Source: Sphingobacteriaceae bacterium
GTDB lineage: Bacteria > Bacteroidota > Bacteroidia > B-17B0 > Aurantibacillaceae
Assembly: GCA_947480015.1 (NCBI GenBank)
Contig: CANKBS010000006.1
Coordinates: forward strand, 1 to 64,000
Direction: 5' to 3'
DNA length: 64,000 nt
Shown: positions 51,402-63,686 of the stretch, piece by piece
How the letters are laid out: each line of letters opens with the position of its first letter
Position numbering within the stretch: the first letter of the stretch is position 1
Program-made: the position numbers and the translations under genes
The notes under the pieces: model-generated
The model's database searches: none
Told to the model about the DNA's origin: nothing
The model's input: only the letters and a program-made list of their open reading frames with translations

Positions 51402-52544
51402 TTAGATAGCTTGTCCAAAATTTTCTTTTACATAGTTTTCAATATGCTTCATGAGTTCCTTTTCTAGTCCCTTATGATATTTTTTAATATTTAATTTTAT
51501 TTTATTTCCCTCTTCAAAAGCTTTATATCCACGTTCGTACTGCTTTTCAATCGAATCAAGATAACCTTTGCTTATTTTCTGCTCATAAGGTCTACCACGT
51601 TTTTTAATATTTATGTTCAAATTAGTTTTATTGGTACGGAGGTATACAAATAAATCGGGTTTAGGAATCTGAGATGCCAAAGCCATGAAGTGTTTTTCAA
51701 AAAGGGTATATTCCTTACTTTTTAAATTAACTTTTGCAAACCATAAACTTTTAAACACACTAAAATCACTAATTACCAAAGCCGTATGGTGTTCAAAATG
51801 TTTACTAAGCTGCTCAAACCGACTGATGAGAAAACTGTACTCAAGTGGAAAAGCGTAAAACGCAGGATCTTTATAAAACAAGGGCAGCAAATGGTTTTGC
51901 TCAAATTCTTCGGCCAAATAGCTTGTTTTTAATCTTTTTGCCAAGGCCTTAGCTAATGTCGAGGTTCCAGAAGCCAAATTGCCTTCAATACAAATATAGC
52001 GGAGCTGTTTTTTTTCTTCCAATACCGTAACTTCTAATTTGTCTTTTGTAAGGGTTAAAAGCTGCTTCATGGTTTTTTTAAACTGTGGGTGTAGTAAATC
52101 TTTTTCAATTTCAACCAAAGGCACTAACACAAATTTACGTAAATGCATGCGGGGATGCGGCACCTGTATAGCTGTCTCATCAATAATTTCAGAATTATAA
52201 AACAAAATATCTAAATCAATTGTCCTGTCAGAATTCTGATCGTCCGTTCTAATCCTGCCAAGTTTTTTTTCAATCCCGAGCAAGGCCTTTAAAAGTTCTT
52301 GAGCACCTAATGGGGTCTCAAGTTTAATAACCTGGTTGAGGTATTTTTTATCCGAACTAATCCCCCATGCTTGTGTTTGATAGTGCTTGGATGTTTTTAA
52401 TAAGGTGCCACATTGCTTTTCAATGGCCTTGAGGGCTTTATTTAAATTAGCCCTTCGGTCTCCTATATTTCCGCCTAACCCTAAAAAAGCTATATTCATA
52501 CCATGTTTAGGAAACGACTCATTAATATTTTTAATTTTACGCAC
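51402..52544 (-). CDS. folK: HPPK (FolK) fused to a deoxynucleoside kinase domain
   Basis: FolK: AFLGLGGNIGDRRANLNKAL...RTIDLDILFYNSEII...VPHPRMHLRKFVLVPL. dNK: RYICIEGNLASGTSTLAKALAKRL. Confidence 0.93.
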   Translation of the reverse strand: MRKIKNINESFPKHGMNIAFLGLGGNIGDRRANLNKALKAIEKQCGTLLKTSKHYQTQAWGISSDKKYLNQVIKLETPLGAQELLKALLGIEKKLGRIRTDDQNSDRTIDLDILFYNSEIIDETAIQVPHPRMHLRKFVLVPLVEIEKDLLHPQFKKTMKQLLTLTKDKLEVTVLEEKKQLRYICIEGNLASGTSTLAKALAKRLKTSYLAEEFEQNHLLPLFYKDPAFYAFPLEYSFLISRFEQLSKHFEHHTALVISDFSVFKSLWFAKVNLKSKEYTLFEKHFMALASQIPKPDLFVYLRTNKTNLNINIKKRGRPYEQKISKGYLDSIEKQYERGYKAFEEGNKIKLNIKKYHKGLEKELMKHIENYVKENFGQAI

Positions 52545-55778: not shown

Positions 55779-58700
55779 GTGCCGAACCACTATTTTTTAC
55801 CTGATTTTGGATGTAAATATAGTTTTTTACCATTTGCGAAAATTATTTATCTTAGTTCCCATAATTTGAAAACGATTAATCACATACTCATTTGGATTTT
55901 TCTCGCATTCGTCCAACCTTTTTTTTCTCAGCAACTACGTTTTAAACACATCACGTCTGAAGATGGTTTAAGTACCAATTTTGTAAAAACAATCCTTCAA
56001 GATGATTTGGGCTTTATGTGGTTTGGAACCCAAGATGGTTTAAATAAATACGATGGCTGTCAAATTAAAATTTTTAAAAACGACCCTACTAACCCCAATT
56101 CCTTGTCCTGCTCCGATATTACCGCGTTAAAACAAGTAAAATCCGATCTCATTTTAGTTGGTACCCGCGAAGGCTTAAACCTCTTTAACCCTGTAACAGA
56201 AAACTTTTCAACGCTTCAAAAGATAGATGGCCGACTCAATACCAAAATAAATGTCATTTATAAAATGGATGAAGATAATGCCTTGGTTGGAACCGAAGGC
56301 GGACTCTTCGTGTTAAATCTTACAGCACACACGATTAAAAATCCCTACTTTAAAGTAGAAGAAAAGGTGAATGTGAAATGTATCGAAAAAGTGAACGATG
56401 TTGTTTATGTGGGTACCAGTGATAAAGGTTTATGGAAATTAAATAAAAAAAACCAACTCGAACACGTTGAGTTTATTATTCCCGATTACATTAAAGCCAA
56501 TCTCGACGACCTTAATTCCATTACTCATATTAACCAATACGGCAGTAATATGTACCTGGGAACCTATGGTTATGGTATTTATAAAATCGATCGCCAGTTT
56601 GAAATTCAGGAAAAAATCTCTTTCAGTAAACAAAATGAAGGCTCCGATTATATCAAGGATTTTTCAATTCGGAATAACAAAATATTTGCCGCTACCGCTC
56701 ATGGTGTTTTAGTATATAATCTCTTGTCACAAGAAATTAATTTTTACACCAAACAAGAAACGCCATTAGCGCTAAACTCCAATCCCTGTACCTGTATTTT
56801 CAGTGATAATGAAAATAATTTCTGGATTGGAACAGATATAGGAGGAGTGAATATTTCCTTTTTCCGCTCTCAAAAATTCCCTAATTCTACGTTTAATTTC
56901 GAAACAGACTACGATAATATCTATGCCTTTTATGAAGATAAACGCGACACCGTTTTAATTGGTGGTGTTAATACCTTCCATGAACTTTTCTTGGCTAACG
57001 GTAATTCAGTTGCCCATAATAAAAGCCTCGAAAATGTCACAGTACTCAGTATCGTCAAAGAAAGTAAATCTACCTTTTGGATTGGCACCAATGGTAATGG
57101 ATTATACAAGTACGACAAAGCCAGCAGAAAATCAAAACAAATATTAAACAGTCAGTTGGGTGGAACCGTTTTGTGTTTGAAACTAGTAGGAGATTATTTA
57201 TACGCCGGTACGGTTGGTGATGGATTAATTAAAGTAGATCTTAAAACCAATGAACCAACTCAGTTTACCGAGGACGATGGTTTGCCTGATATGAGCATCA
57301 ATACCATTTTTGTTGATTCCAAGGCGCATGTTTGGCTCGGTACATACGACGGCGGCATGGTAAAACTGTCGGGTTTTGACAAAAACGGAAAATTGCCCAT
57401 AGAAAAAATTTACGATCACAAAGGCAAACTCGGTCAAATCGCCTCTAACATGGTTATGGGTATTAATGAAGATAAAGCCGGTAACATTTGGGCCGCTACT
57501 GCTACCGGCCTGAGTAAATTAGAAGCCAATGGCTCATTCCACAATTTTTACGAAAAAGACGGATTAGCCAATTCATTTTTATATTCCCTACTTAAAGATA
57601 GTCTGGATCATTTTTGGATGAGTTCTAATTCAGGCATCATTAGCTTTAACCCTCAGTCAAGCGAAAAAGAAATCACCTTTAAAAATTACAGTATTAAGGA
57701 CGGCCTTGTAAATACCGAATACAACATGGGCGCTGCATTTGCCTCAACTACCGGCATGATGTATTTTGGTGGAGCCAAAGGATTTAATGCATTTCGCCCA
57801 ACTTCCATCAAAGATAATTTACATGCTCCGGGAGCATATGTGATCAGTTACAAACGAGGAGGACACGATGTGGAGACCGATTCACTTATCACCTATAAAA
57901 AACATTTAAACTTAAACTGGCAAGAAAACTACTTTCAATTTGAATTAGTAGCCATCGATTTTACTGATCCTGCAAAAAATAAATTCCGATATATGCTCGA
58001 AGGTTATGATGCAAATTGGTCGGCGCCTACCAATGTGCGTTATGTGTCCTACACGGCCTTACCTGGTGGGGAATACGTGTTCAAAGTGAAAGCTGCCAAT
58101 AACGATGGTATTTGGAATGAAAAACCATTTGAAATTAGAATAACTGTAGTGCCACCATTCTGGAAAACAAAAACTTTTTATGTGCTTGTTATTCTACTTG
58201 GTTTAGGAGGAATATACGGTTACACCACATACCGCACAAAAGCCATTATGAATGAGAACCGGATCCTCGAAAACAAAGTTGCTGAGCGTACCCGCGAACT
58301 GGAAGAAAAGAACCGTGATATTACCAGCAGTATTGAGTATGCCAAACGAATTCAGGAAGCCATCCTTCCTTCAAAGGAAAATATTTTCAGTAAACTCAAA
58401 AAAGTATTTATCCTTTATCAACCTAAAGATATTGTGAGTGGCGACTTTTACTGGTTTGCTGAAAAAAACGGATTAAAAATATTTGCAGTGGTTGACTGTA
58501 CCGGCCATGGCGTGCCGGGTGCCTTCATGAGTATGATTGGCCATAATCTCTTGCATCAAATCGTTTTAGAAAAAGGTATTACCGACCCCGGTGATATTTT
58601 AAATCATTTACATAAAGGCGTAAAAGAGGCTTTGCGTCAGGGTCACAATGAAATTAATACCAATGATGGTATGGATGTTTCGATCATTTCCATTAACGAT

Positions 58701-59075
58701 ACTACCAAAGATATTAACTGGGCTGGGGCTAACCGGCCGCTGGTTATTATTGATGCGAACAAAGAACTGATCAAATACGATGGAAATAAATTTCCAGTTG
58801 GAGGCGCTCAAATGGATGCCAGCAGAGTATTTACCACACGTAATATTAAAGTTTCTACAGCCTCTATGGCTTATATGTTCTCCGATGGTTATGCTGATCA
58901 ATTTGGCGGCGAAAAGGGTAAAAAGTTCATGGTAAAACGTTTCCACGATCTCTTAGCTACCATTCACCTTCAATCGGCCGAAGAGCAACGCCTCGAGTTA
59001 AAAAAGAACTTCGAACAATGGAGCCATAACCACGAACAGGTGGATGATGTTTTAATTGTTGGTATTGAGATTTAA
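55779..59075 (+). CDS. Beta-propeller/Y_Y_Y sensor fused to a SpoIIE-type PP2C phosphatase
   Basis: Propeller repeats (TSEDGLSTNFVKTILQDDLGFMWFGTQDGLNKYDG); Y_Y_Y YEANWS-like segment; TM; SpoIIE QPKDIVSGDFYWF...VVDCTGHGVPGAFMSMIG. The likely start is TTG 55866 rather than GTG 55779. Confidence 0.93.
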   Translation: MPNHYFLPDFGCKYSFLPFAKIIYLSSHNLKTINHILIWIFLAFVQPFFSQQLRFKHITSEDGLSTNFVKTILQDDLGFMWFGTQDGLNKYDGCQIKIFKNDPTNPNSLSCSDITALKQVKSDLILVGTREGLNLFNPVTENFSTLQKIDGRLNTKINVIYKMDEDNALVGTEGGLFVLNLTAHTIKNPYFKVEEKVNVKCIEKVNDVVYVGTSDKGLWKLNKKNQLEHVEFIIPDYIKANLDDLNSITHINQYGSNMYLGTYGYGIYKIDRQFEIQEKISFSKQNEGSDYIKDFSIRNNKIFAATAHGVLVYNLLSQEINFYTKQETPLALNSNPCTCIFSDNENNFWIGTDIGGVNISFFRSQKFPNSTFNFETDYDNIYAFYEDKRDTVLIGGVNTFHELFLANGNSVAHNKSLENVTVLSIVKESKSTFWIGTNGNGLYKYDKASRKSKQILNSQLGGTVLCLKLVGDYLYAGTVGDGLIKVDLKTNEPTQFTEDDGLPDMSINTIFVDSKAHVWLGTYDGGMVKLSGFDKNGKLPIEKIYDHKGKLGQIASNMVMGINEDKAGNIWAATATGLSKLEANGSFHNFYEKDGLANSFLYSLLKDSLDHFWMSSNSGIISFNPQSSEKEITFKNYSIKDGLVNTEYNMGAAFASTTGMMYFGGAKGFNAFRPTSIKDNLHAPGAYVISYKRGGHDVETDSLITYKKHLNLNWQENYFQFELVAIDFTDPAKNKFRYMLEGYDANWSAPTNVRYVSYTALPGGEYVFKVKAANNDGIWNEKPFEIRITVVPPFWKTKTFYVLVILLGLGGIYGYTTYRTKAIMNENRILENKVAERTRELEEKNRDITSSIEYAKRIQEAILPSKENIFSKLKKVFILYQPKDIVSGDFYWFAEKNGLKIFAVVDCTGHGVPGAFMSMIGHNLLHQIVLEKGITDPGDILNHLHKGVKEALRQGHNEINTNDGMDVSIISINDTTKDINWAGANRPLVIIDANKELIKYDGNKFPVGGAQMDASRVFTTRNIKVSTASMAYMFSDGYADQFGGEKGKKFMVKRFHDLLATIHLQSAEEQRLELKKNFEQWSHNHEQVDDVLIVGIEI

Positions 59076-59107
59076 GATTATTTATTATATTTGTCGACAC
59101 TTATATA

Positions 59108-59737
59108 ATGCTCGTCGATAAAAATGCCTGTTTGATGATAAAATATGCAAAATCTGCGTTTTTAACTTTCTGTCTTATTTCACTCCTGAGTTCTTGCACC
59201 AAGAAACAAGTGGCCGAGGTGGATAATGAGTCCCAATCCCTAATAGGTTATGCCATTGCCGAACAAGAATTTATTGGCATTGTGCCACAAATTTATGAAC
59301 TGACCATGCATACCTCCGGTTTAGCAGCCACCACCTATGTGCCTGGTTGCGATTCCTTGCATTATGTGATTGGCGATTTATCTGATTTTTCCCCTAATCC
59401 AGTATTTAACATCGAACTGAATACACTCCTTTCAAGTTGTTCTACAACATTCCCTGATGGAAAAGGCAGAACAGGGAAAATAACTCTTCGCTTCCAAGCC
59501 CTACATAAAAATATTTCACAATTGGTGATAAAACTTCAAAATTACCAATCGGATGGCATTGCTTATTCATGCGATAGTTTGGTAGCCACTGCAGGAACGG
59601 CCACCAATACCGCAAACGCAGTAAATTTTGATCTTAAGCTTGTGAACGGACTTTGTAAATCGGAACTCTGGCAGATCAAATACAACATGGATACACATAT
59701 AAATTTTGACCCTTCCACCGAAAATACGGCCACTTAA
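59108..59737 (+). CDS. Lipoprotein, unknown; probably the N-terminal part of one gene interrupted by TAA
   Basis: LLSSCTKKQ lipobox; in frame with 59738-59977 across a single TAA. Confidence 0.65.
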   Translation: MLVDKNACLMIKYAKSAFLTFCLISLLSSCTKKQVAEVDNESQSLIGYAIAEQEFIGIVPQIYELTMHTSGLAATTYVPGCDSLHYVIGDLSDFSPNPVFNIELNTLLSSCSTTFPDGKGRTGKITLRFQALHKNISQLVIKLQNYQSDGIAYSCDSLVATAGTATNTANAVNFDLKLVNGLCKSELWQIKYNMDTHINFDPSTENTAT

Positions 59738-59977
59738 ATGCACGGAGCCGGTTCAGGCATAAACCGAACAGGGCTCGTGTTCGTCAGGGAAACAGCCGGT
59801 AAGGGTTACGAAGATTATGTAGTGAAACATAAAAAATGCGCCCATATTGAAAAAGGATTGGTGAAAATAAGTCCTATAGGATTTAAACCGCGACTGCTTG
59901 ATTTTGGTAATGGAAATTGCGATGAAGATGCAACTTTTACGATAAATGAAAATACTGTGGCTTTTAAATTAAAATAA
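59738..59977 (+). CDS. Probable C-terminal continuation of the preceding lipoprotein
   Basis: HGAGSGINRTGLVF...KGLVKISPIGFKPRLLDFGNGNCDEDATFTINENTVAFKLK resembles the C-terminal segment of Bacteroidota surface lipoproteins with a G.G.NRNG...DFGDGTCDN.A pattern. Confidence 0.55.
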   Translation: MHGAGSGINRTGLVFVRETAGKGYEDYVVKHKKCAHIEKGLVKISPIGFKPRLLDFGNGNCDEDATFTINENTVAFKLK

Positions 59978-60014
59978 TATATATTTACAACAAATTAAAC
60001 CAATTAATTCCATA

Positions 60015-60563
60015 GTGGACGTTTTTGATATATACGATAAAATGGAGCGTAATAACATCCTGCTTTCATTTAAAGGTGAGATCACTTCCGATCTTTTAAC
60101 GTCAATTCTCCAGATTATGGAGAATAAAATGGATAACATGCAGGAAGAACCTAAAATGAAAAAAAAGGTTTACAATGTCTTAGTTGAATGCCTGCAAAAC
60201 TTATATCACCACTTGGACGAAATTACGGAGGTAGATTCCGAAAAAATTCGTTCAGCTATTTTTACCATTGGTAAAATGGATAATAAATATTCAATCATTA
60301 CTGGAAACTATATTTTAAACGAAAATATTAATGGCTTAAGAAATCGTTTAGATGAAGTTAATTCGTTATCAAAAGAAGAGTTAAAAGAATATTACAAAAA
60401 AGTATTAAATAACGGTGAAATGTCGTTAAAAGGCGGCGGAGGTTTAGGAATGATTGACATTGCCCGAAAAACTGGTGAAAAATTAGAATATAATTTTTTG
60501 GAAATTGACAATAAAGTTTCTTTCTTTACACTTAATATAAAAGTATCAAATCAACAAAATTAA
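60015..60563 (+). CDS. SiaB-family protein kinase (GHKL-like, DUF6272)
   Basis: GTG start. KKKVYNVLVECLQNLYHHLDE (N-box-like) and LKGGGGLGMIDIARKTGEKLEYNFLEID (G-box-like). Confidence 0.85.
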   Translation: MDVFDIYDKMERNNILLSFKGEITSDLLTSILQIMENKMDNMQEEPKMKKKVYNVLVECLQNLYHHLDEITEVDSEKIRSAIFTIGKMDNKYSIITGNYILNENINGLRNRLDEVNSLSKEELKEYYKKVLNNGEMSLKGGGGLGMIDIARKTGEKLEYNFLEIDNKVSFFTLNIKVSNQQN

Positions 60564-60575
60564 AAATTTACAACT

Positions 60576-60956
60576 ATGGAAAAATACTCTATCGAAGGCA
60601 CACCTAAAACGCCAAGTATAAATTTTGACTTAAATGGTGGTATCCTAGAAGTAAAAGGACGTTCAATTCCAGAGAACTCGATCGAATTTTACAAACCTTT
60701 GGTGGATGCATTAGATAAATACGCCAGTGCAGCGAAACCTGCTACTACGGTAAATGTACAGTTAGAATATTTTAATACGTCTTCGTCTAAATGCATCCTC
60801 GATGTTTTTAAAAAACTTGAAGGAATTAACAAAGGCGGAAGTGCGGTTACCATTAACTGGCATTACGAAGAAGACGATGAAGATATGTTGGAAGCCGGCG
60901 AAGATTATCAGGCCATTATCAACGTGCCCTTCAAAATGATTATGGTAAATGAATAA
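60576..60956 (+). CDS. SiaC-family regulatory phosphoprotein (DUF1987)
   Basis: EGTPKTPSINFDLNGGILEVKGRSIPENSIEFYKPLVDAL...LEYFNTSSSKCILDVFKKLE. Confidence 0.92.
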   Translation: MEKYSIEGTPKTPSINFDLNGGILEVKGRSIPENSIEFYKPLVDALDKYASAAKPATTVNVQLEYFNTSSSKCILDVFKKLEGINKGGSAVTINWHYEEDDEDMLEAGEDYQAIINVPFKMIMVNE

Positions 60957-60977
60957 TATTCATTTTTCAAACGAATA

Positions 60978-61003
60978 ACCCTGCCTTTGGCGGGGTTTTT
61001 TTA
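60978..61003 (+). terminator. Intrinsic terminator after the siaC-like gene
   Basis: ACCCTGCC-ttt-GGCGGGGTTTTTTT. Confidence 0.8.
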
Positions 61004-63134: not shown

Positions 63135-63686
63135 ATGAATATTCAGCAGCAACTGATTGCATTATGCATTAAGCGCGACCGAAAGGCTGAATATGATTTG
63201 TATAAACTTTCCTACAGTTATTTAATGAGTATTTGTCTGCGTTATTCACGCGATAAGGATAGCGCTTCTGAAATGCTAAACTCCGGTTTTTTAAAAATCT
63301 TAAACAACCTAAGCAGTTATAAGCCTGAAATTCCTTTTAAAGCCTGGATACGACGAATCATGGTTAACACCTTGATAGATGAATACCGTAAAAATAAACG
63401 AGCGAAAGAAAAAGTTACCTATGTTGAAGAGTATTACGACAATTCAGATTTTTCTGAAGTAAACGAGGCCTTGAGTAGAATTAACTACAATCAAATAGTG
63501 GAACATATTAACCGATTGCCCGAAGCTACAAAGAAGGTGTTTAATTTATTCGCCATTGATGGTTACTCTCATAAAGAAATTGGTGTTCTGCTTCAAATCA
63601 GTGAAGGCACCTCAAAATGGCATCTGAATGCGGCTAGACAAAAATTAAAAGAGTATTTAGAAAACAGTGTATTAACAAAGGTTTAA
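63135..63686 (+). CDS. ECF-type RNA polymerase sigma-70 factor
   Basis: Region 2 KPEIPFKAWIRRIMVNTLIDEYRKNKR; region 4 LPEATKKVFNLFAIDGYSHKEIGVLLQISEGTSKWHLNAARQKLKEYL. Confidence 0.95.
   Translation: MNIQQQLIALCIKRDRKAEYDLYKLSYSYLMSICLRYSRDKDSASEMLNSGFLKILNNLSSYKPEIPFKAWIRRIMVNTLIDEYRKNKRAKEKVTYVEEYYDNSDFSEVNEALSRINYNQIVEHINRLPEATKKVFNLFAIDGYSHKEIGVLLQISEGTSKWHLNAARQKLKEYLENSVLTKV

Follow-up and report, generated by a model that had tools for sequence, protein, structure and literature searches.

Sigma factors and diguanylate cyclases are known targets of partner switches. In Pseudomonas, SiaC is phosphorylated on Thr68 within the motif NTSS (PMC7647112). In its free form SiaC binds the stalk of the diguanylate cyclase SiaD (PMC7647112, PMC8457831), and the SiaD residues K77, R80, I81, S82, D83 and Q86 contact SiaC around Thr68 (PMC8457831). 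Rv1747 of Mycobacterium is an FHA-containing ATP-binding cassette (ABC) exporter that is modulated by the Ser/Thr kinase PknF (PMC3908365). Here we analyzed a Sia-like locus in a stretch of 64,000 nucleotides (the window) on contig CANKBS010000006.1 from an uncultured Sphingobacteriaceae bacterium (Bacteroidota). The explanation that we favour, and to which we assign a probability of about 0.5 as a whole, is a Sia-type switch with a conserved input half, whose output has been replaced by an exporter of the type TerB-FHA-ABC.

All genes of the locus are on the forward strand. The membrane phosphatase, which would take the role of SiaA, is encoded at 55866–59075, as judged from domain profiles, homology to SiaA and the length of the orthologues. 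The protein consists, in this order, of a signal peptide, a beta-propeller (Reg_prop), a Y_Y_Y domain (57957–58148; residues 727–790 of the open reading frame that opens at 55779), one transmembrane segment, a coiled coil and a cytosolic SpoIIE/PP2C domain (58482–59069). The PP2C domain with the coiled-coil linker matches the SiaA profile NF038263 with an E-value of 5e-54, although this match does not reach the cut-off for the full-length equivalog, and the Protein Data Bank (PDB) entry 6k4e with an E-value of 4e-35. An alignment to SiaA showed that the metal-site residues are complete; all of the metal-binding Asp positions of SiaA are conserved. The output domain is thus SpoIIE, and not the combination of a histidine kinase with a DNA-binding domain that defines the hybrid two-component proteins. 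The initial annotation described this domain content correctly. The start that it gave, 55779, is less likely than a TTG at 55866, which is probably the true start because the resulting protein of 1069 amino acids equals the orthologues in length.

The kinase gene siaB (60015–60563) codes for a protein of the SiaB family (DUF6272), which matches PF19788 and exceeds the cut-off of NF038262. In an alignment with PaSiaB the catalytic Glu and Asn of the N box are conserved. The following gene, siaC (60576–60956), codes for a phosphoprotein of 126 amino acids with matches to PF09345 and to the PDB entries 6kko and 7e6g. Its N67-T68-S69-S70, with the Thr68 codon at 60777–60779, is identical in motif and numbering to the Pseudomonas phosphosite, and the NTSS at residues 67–70 is invariant in 121/121 close relatives. 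Profile and PDB matches hence confirm the gene calls and domains that had been proposed for all three proteins. The idea of a Sia-type partner switch is likewise supported by the homology to SiaA, SiaB and SiaC and by the retained catalytic and phosphorylation sites; we are confident that these proteins form the core of a Sia switch with the window phosphatase as a component. The window genome contains a single SiaC. It has two more SiaB-family proteins without a SiaC neighbour; the one at L023:6489-7064 is conserved throughout the genus, and the one at L024:6673-7194 has a degenerate N box in which the Glu is replaced.

The 1.1 kb between the phosphatase gene and siaB had been taken as a gap in the initial annotation. 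This region is not empty; it contains a conserved gene for a lipoprotein (59108–59977), which had been overlooked. The intergenic distances are 32 bp between the phosphatase and lipoprotein genes, 37 bp between the lipoprotein gene and siaB and 12 bp between siaB and siaC, and from this arrangement the four genes probably form one unit. The unit should end with siaC because a strong terminator-like stem of 9 pairs with a T run lies 3' of this gene (60977–60997). The lipoprotein has about 290 amino acids, is mainly beta-strand and was modelled as a long beta-sheet protein. It did not match any known family, and a structure search with the model gave no convincing fold match. In this assembly the frame is interrupted by a TAA at 59735–59737, after which the conserved C-terminus resumes in the same frame; the gene is intact in relatives. 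The TAA may reflect a recent mutation, an assembly error or readthrough.

Next we compared 80 named siaC loci, all or nearly all of which are from uncultured Bacteroidota genomes. The siaB gene is upstream of siaC in 78 of them. Among the 63 loci with enough sequence, a SpoIIE gene occurs no more than four genes upstream in 47, and the lipoprotein gene is found at the equivalent position in 46. The order SpoIIE-lipoprotein-siaB-siaC is conserved throughout the genus, and several further families share it; the same gene order is present in other families of the class (L086–L092) and even in another class (L237, L238). SiaB and SiaC are present together in 50/60 genomes and are both missing from the identical 10. 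The neighbourhood of propeller-SpoIIE, siaB and siaC, for which the initial annotation had suggested a conservation check, is therefore conserved, and this finding, combined with the complete metal sites, agrees with the proposal that the propeller-SpoIIE protein is the linked phosphatase of the switch.

A diguanylate cyclase had been reported as absent from the window. We found that this absence extends much further: no GGDEF domain was detected in the window genome, which is 99.99% complete, nor in any of the 60 genomes searched, while control genomes gave matches. Hence the earlier view that the switch has no SiaD is correct, but its conclusion that the output cannot be named has to be modified, since the comparative data supply a candidate. 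Adjoining siaC paralogues is a gene for a protein of about 1020 amino acids, which according to Pfam combines TerB, a beta domain, an ABC ATPase and an ABC2 membrane domain in one chain. The beta domain is FHA-like: an AlphaFold2 (AF2) model has a pLDDT of 85, and the best matches in Foldseek were almost all FHA domains (E-values of 0.02–0.1); the TerB-like 2h5n was also one of the matches. Pfam, the model and Foldseek together describe an exporter with an N-terminal FHA fold, an ABC ATPase and an ABC2 membrane domain. It is accompanied by proteins of about 300 (c300) and about 145 (c144) amino acids. The window genome has one such exporter, on contig C17, together with both companions (a lipoprotein of 303 and a secreted protein of 142 amino acids).

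The exporter occurs in 48/50 genomes with SiaC and in 1/10 without; counted by family, the numbers are 14/15 and 1/9 (Fisher p = 1e-4). A phylum-wide sample of 248 genomes comprised five with SiaC from the window's class, nine with SiaC from other classes and 234 without SiaC. The exporter was present in 5/5 of the first group and, apart from two trivial matches, in 0/234 of the last. Furthermore, it is encoded within about 3 kb of siaC, on the same strand or convergently, in nine families besides that of the window, and in the genus of the window it is close to siaC paralogues. In about 10/15 families it is beside siaC. The genomes of one family (f15) have SpoIIE, siaB, siaC, the exporter gene and c300 in a single same-strand run; only in this family is the exporter gene directly 3' of siaC. 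Two proteins (L185, L186) are natural fusions of TerB-FHA with SiaC. The paralogous Sia loci L185, L186, L181 and L192 contain SpoIIE, CheB, CheR and GAF genes, and their kinases are paired or tandem double-SiaB proteins.

The nine SiaC-containing genomes from other classes have no TerB-FHA-ABC exporter. At 9/10 of their loci the gene after siaC carries a helical stalk of about 80 amino acids. A comparison by eye and by residue names, rather than by formal alignment, shows that the stalk motif K-x-x-R/K-I-[SG]-D-x-x-Q agrees with the SiaD residues that contact SiaC. Fusion partners of the stalk are GGDEF, HisKA/HATPase, SpoIIE and a membrane segment; in other cases the stalk stands alone beside AAA+ proteins; the GGDEF output occurs in two loci with the order propeller-SpoIIE, siaB, siaC. 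At L239, L240, L242 and L243 the SiaD-like stalk occurs with a membrane protein or SpoIIE, or alone by AAA+ ATPases, and such outputs of SiaC are absent from the descriptions in the papers that we found. The stand-alone stalk gave no PDB match by sequence. No stalk was present at about 160 siaC loci of the window's class, and a stalk profile had no match in the approximately 1.04 Mb (about 27%) of the window genome that were searched. The TerB module was also considered as a homolog of the SiaD stalk; the idea was dropped after an unconvincing comparison by eye and with no match to this profile in the 1.04 Mb searched. Because the other classes have stalk outputs and the window's class has the exporter, the input half appears to be conserved and the output exchanged.

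The input side itself is more complex than one phosphatase. The window genome has ten SpoIIE genes, of which nine are SiaA-type (NF038263 E-values from 1e-41 to 5e-65) and one is RsbU-like. The nine carry propellers (three proteins), TPR (two), a four-helix bundle, a YfiR-like domain, a GldL/GldM-like region and an unclassified membrane region as inputs, and a propeller-PAS input is among these sensors. The PP2C sites of all nine are complete, and a propeller-SpoIIE protein on contig C1 is nearer to SiaA than the window copy (5e-65 vs 5e-54). The picture of a single dedicated partner phosphatase is thus too simple for a genome with nine SiaA-type SpoIIE proteins and one SiaC, the more so as the window copy is not the most SiaA-like. 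Relatives with SiaC have 1 to 15 copies of it and up to at least 44 SpoIIE proteins per genome; within the genus the numbers are at least 44 SpoIIE (95 first-look candidates in one genome) versus 1–13 SiaC. The SiaA-type phosphatases seem to depend on SiaC because good-quality genomes without SiaC have only 0–3 SpoIIE proteins, all RsbU-like in score. It is likely that multiple sensor phosphatases converge on one SiaC; that all nine do so would be an extrapolation. The SpoIIE protein with N-terminal resemblance to GldL/GldM (PF22827, PF12081), which are type IX secretion/gliding motor proteins, is encoded at L020:5616-7769 on contig C25 of the window genome; the switch might thereby receive a motor- or proton-coupled signal. 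As alternative substrates, two STAS proteins of the window genome were considered and rejected: one, of 115 amino acids, is encoded beside a FUR-family gene and may serve the RsbU-type phosphatase, and the other is a SulP transporter. A SulP-STAS transporter with a cyclic-nucleotide domain is encoded at L223:4096-8149, with a gene for a class III nucleotide cyclase immediately downstream.

In the mechanism that we propose, SiaB would phosphorylate SiaC at Thr68, and engagement of the sensor part would cause the propeller-SpoIIE protein to dephosphorylate it. The same reaction would probably be catalysed by most of the remaining eight SiaA-type SpoIIE proteins, so that many sensors would act on one SiaC. 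SiaC would contact the C17 exporter at the N-terminal TerB-FHA module, and this binding would gate the export of an envelope component; the sign of the contact and the cargo are conjectural. Genomic context and co-occurrence make it an even call that the exporter is the direct target of SiaC. Several observations weigh against it. In the window genome the exporter gene and siaBC are on separate contigs, and therefore the link between them rests on relatives. One genome with SiaC (G059, 91% complete) has no exporter, and one without SiaC (G058) has a divergent one. The exporter does not contain the SiaD-stalk motif, which is the known element bound by SiaC, and the stalk search covered about 27% of the window genome. 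The Foldseek E-values are weak. The canonical Arg/Ser before the NG motif, which binds phosphothreonine in FHA domains, is not invariant in 26 sequences, so that, by sequence, the FHA fold of the module may not bind phosphopeptides. Finally, the SiaC paralogues of relatives are found in other contexts too. A literature search returned no paper that links SiaC to ABC transporters or to partner switches in Bacteroidota.

These objections lead to the question of whether SiaC acts on something else. With a real core, the target could be another protein that is stalk-bearing, a sigma or anti-sigma factor or a histidine kinase, and the exporter would co-occur through a shared regulon or lifestyle. 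The stalk genes after siaC in other classes, with their [SG]DxxQ motif and their varied outputs, and the limited coverage of the stalk scan argue for such a target; the absence of stalks from the roughly 160 loci of the window's class that were examined, the natural fusions and the recurrent adjacency of siaC and exporter genes in differing orientations argue against it. We regard this alternative as possible, though rather doubtful. It is unlikely that the propeller-SpoIIE protein is a mere neighbour and that another of the nine is the real or main SiaC phosphatase. The complete sites of all nine, the closer similarity of the C1 protein to SiaA and the lack of an upstream SpoIIE gene at 16/63 siaBC loci of the class would fit this idea. 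Yet the window gene is the one that is retained beside siaBC across the genus and in other families, and a propeller-SpoIIE gene takes the equivalent place even in another class. The two views of the phosphatase are compatible if all nine converge.

A canonical SiaABCD pathway, with a c-di-GMP output through a diguanylate cyclase elsewhere in the genome, could be expected from the homology of SiaABC and from the two loci of other classes that combine the same gene order with GGDEF. This is the least credible explanation, and at the sensitivity of the search it is refuted by the GGDEF survey with its positive controls. Nearly as improbable is an output through the genes downstream of siaC. Most members of the genus carry fructose-bisphosphate aldolase, accD and an ECF sigma factor gene (at 63135 in the window) in this position. 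These genes are separated from siaC by the terminator and are not its neighbours in other families, and on these grounds they were ruled out. Upstream of the locus, a single reading frame at 51402–52544 appears by eye to be a fusion of a folate-pathway pyrophosphokinase with a deoxynucleoside kinase.

If the proposed function of the exporter is true, a large uncultured group without GGDEF proteins would have a novel signalling layout, namely a transporter-gating switch with many interchangeable sensors. This layout would offer a candidate answer as to the role of SiaC-family proteins where SiaD is absent, which the SiaC literature has not settled, and the stalk could be seen as a socket by which related classes exchange their SiaC outputs. 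More tentatively, SiaB/SiaC would be a general adaptor across Bacteroidota with swapped outputs (diguanylate cyclase, histidine kinase, phosphatase, AAA+), which in the window's class directly gates an exporter and channels the signals of a few to at least 40 different membrane sensor phosphatases to one SiaC protein or a small number of them.

The comparison with known systems shows where the locus is distinct. It shares the periplasmic Reg_prop propeller and Y_Y_Y input with the hybrid two-component systems of Bacteroidota, but its output is a phosphatase and not a histidine kinase with an AraC regulator. Like RsbU/RsbV/RsbW and SpoIIE/SpoIIAA it has a SpoIIE phosphatase, a GHKL-type kinase, a STAS-like phosphoprotein and several phosphatases that probably converge; it differs in that no sigma factor is linked, in that its proteins belong to the SiaC and SiaB families instead of STAS and RsbW, and in the far larger number of membrane sensor types per substrate. 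The exporter resembles Rv1747 as an ABCG-type half transporter with an N-terminal FHA fold and a link to Ser/Thr phosphorylation. Unlike Rv1747 it contains TerB, is tied to a partner switch and not to a Hanks-type kinase, and has no conserved canonical phospho-pocket in its FHA fold. The Sia modules of other classes (L235, L237–L244) have the same siaB-siaC pair, two of them with an upstream propeller-SpoIIE gene as in the window, but their SiaD-like stalk gene after siaC has no counterpart beside siaC in the window's class. The closest system is SiaABCD of P. aeruginosa, with which the locus shares a PP2C phosphatase with a membrane sensor, the SiaB kinase, a SiaC with Thr68 in NTSS and the adjoining position of the genes. 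In place of the SiaA sensor there is a propeller/Y_Y_Y sensor, the operon has an additional lipoprotein, about nine phosphatases are present per SiaC, and the organism has a probable exporter output and neither SiaD nor any other GGDEF protein. Because SiaD is missing, the locus does not qualify as a full SiaABCD pathway; by analogy, the window switch probably works like SiaABCD with a replaced output.

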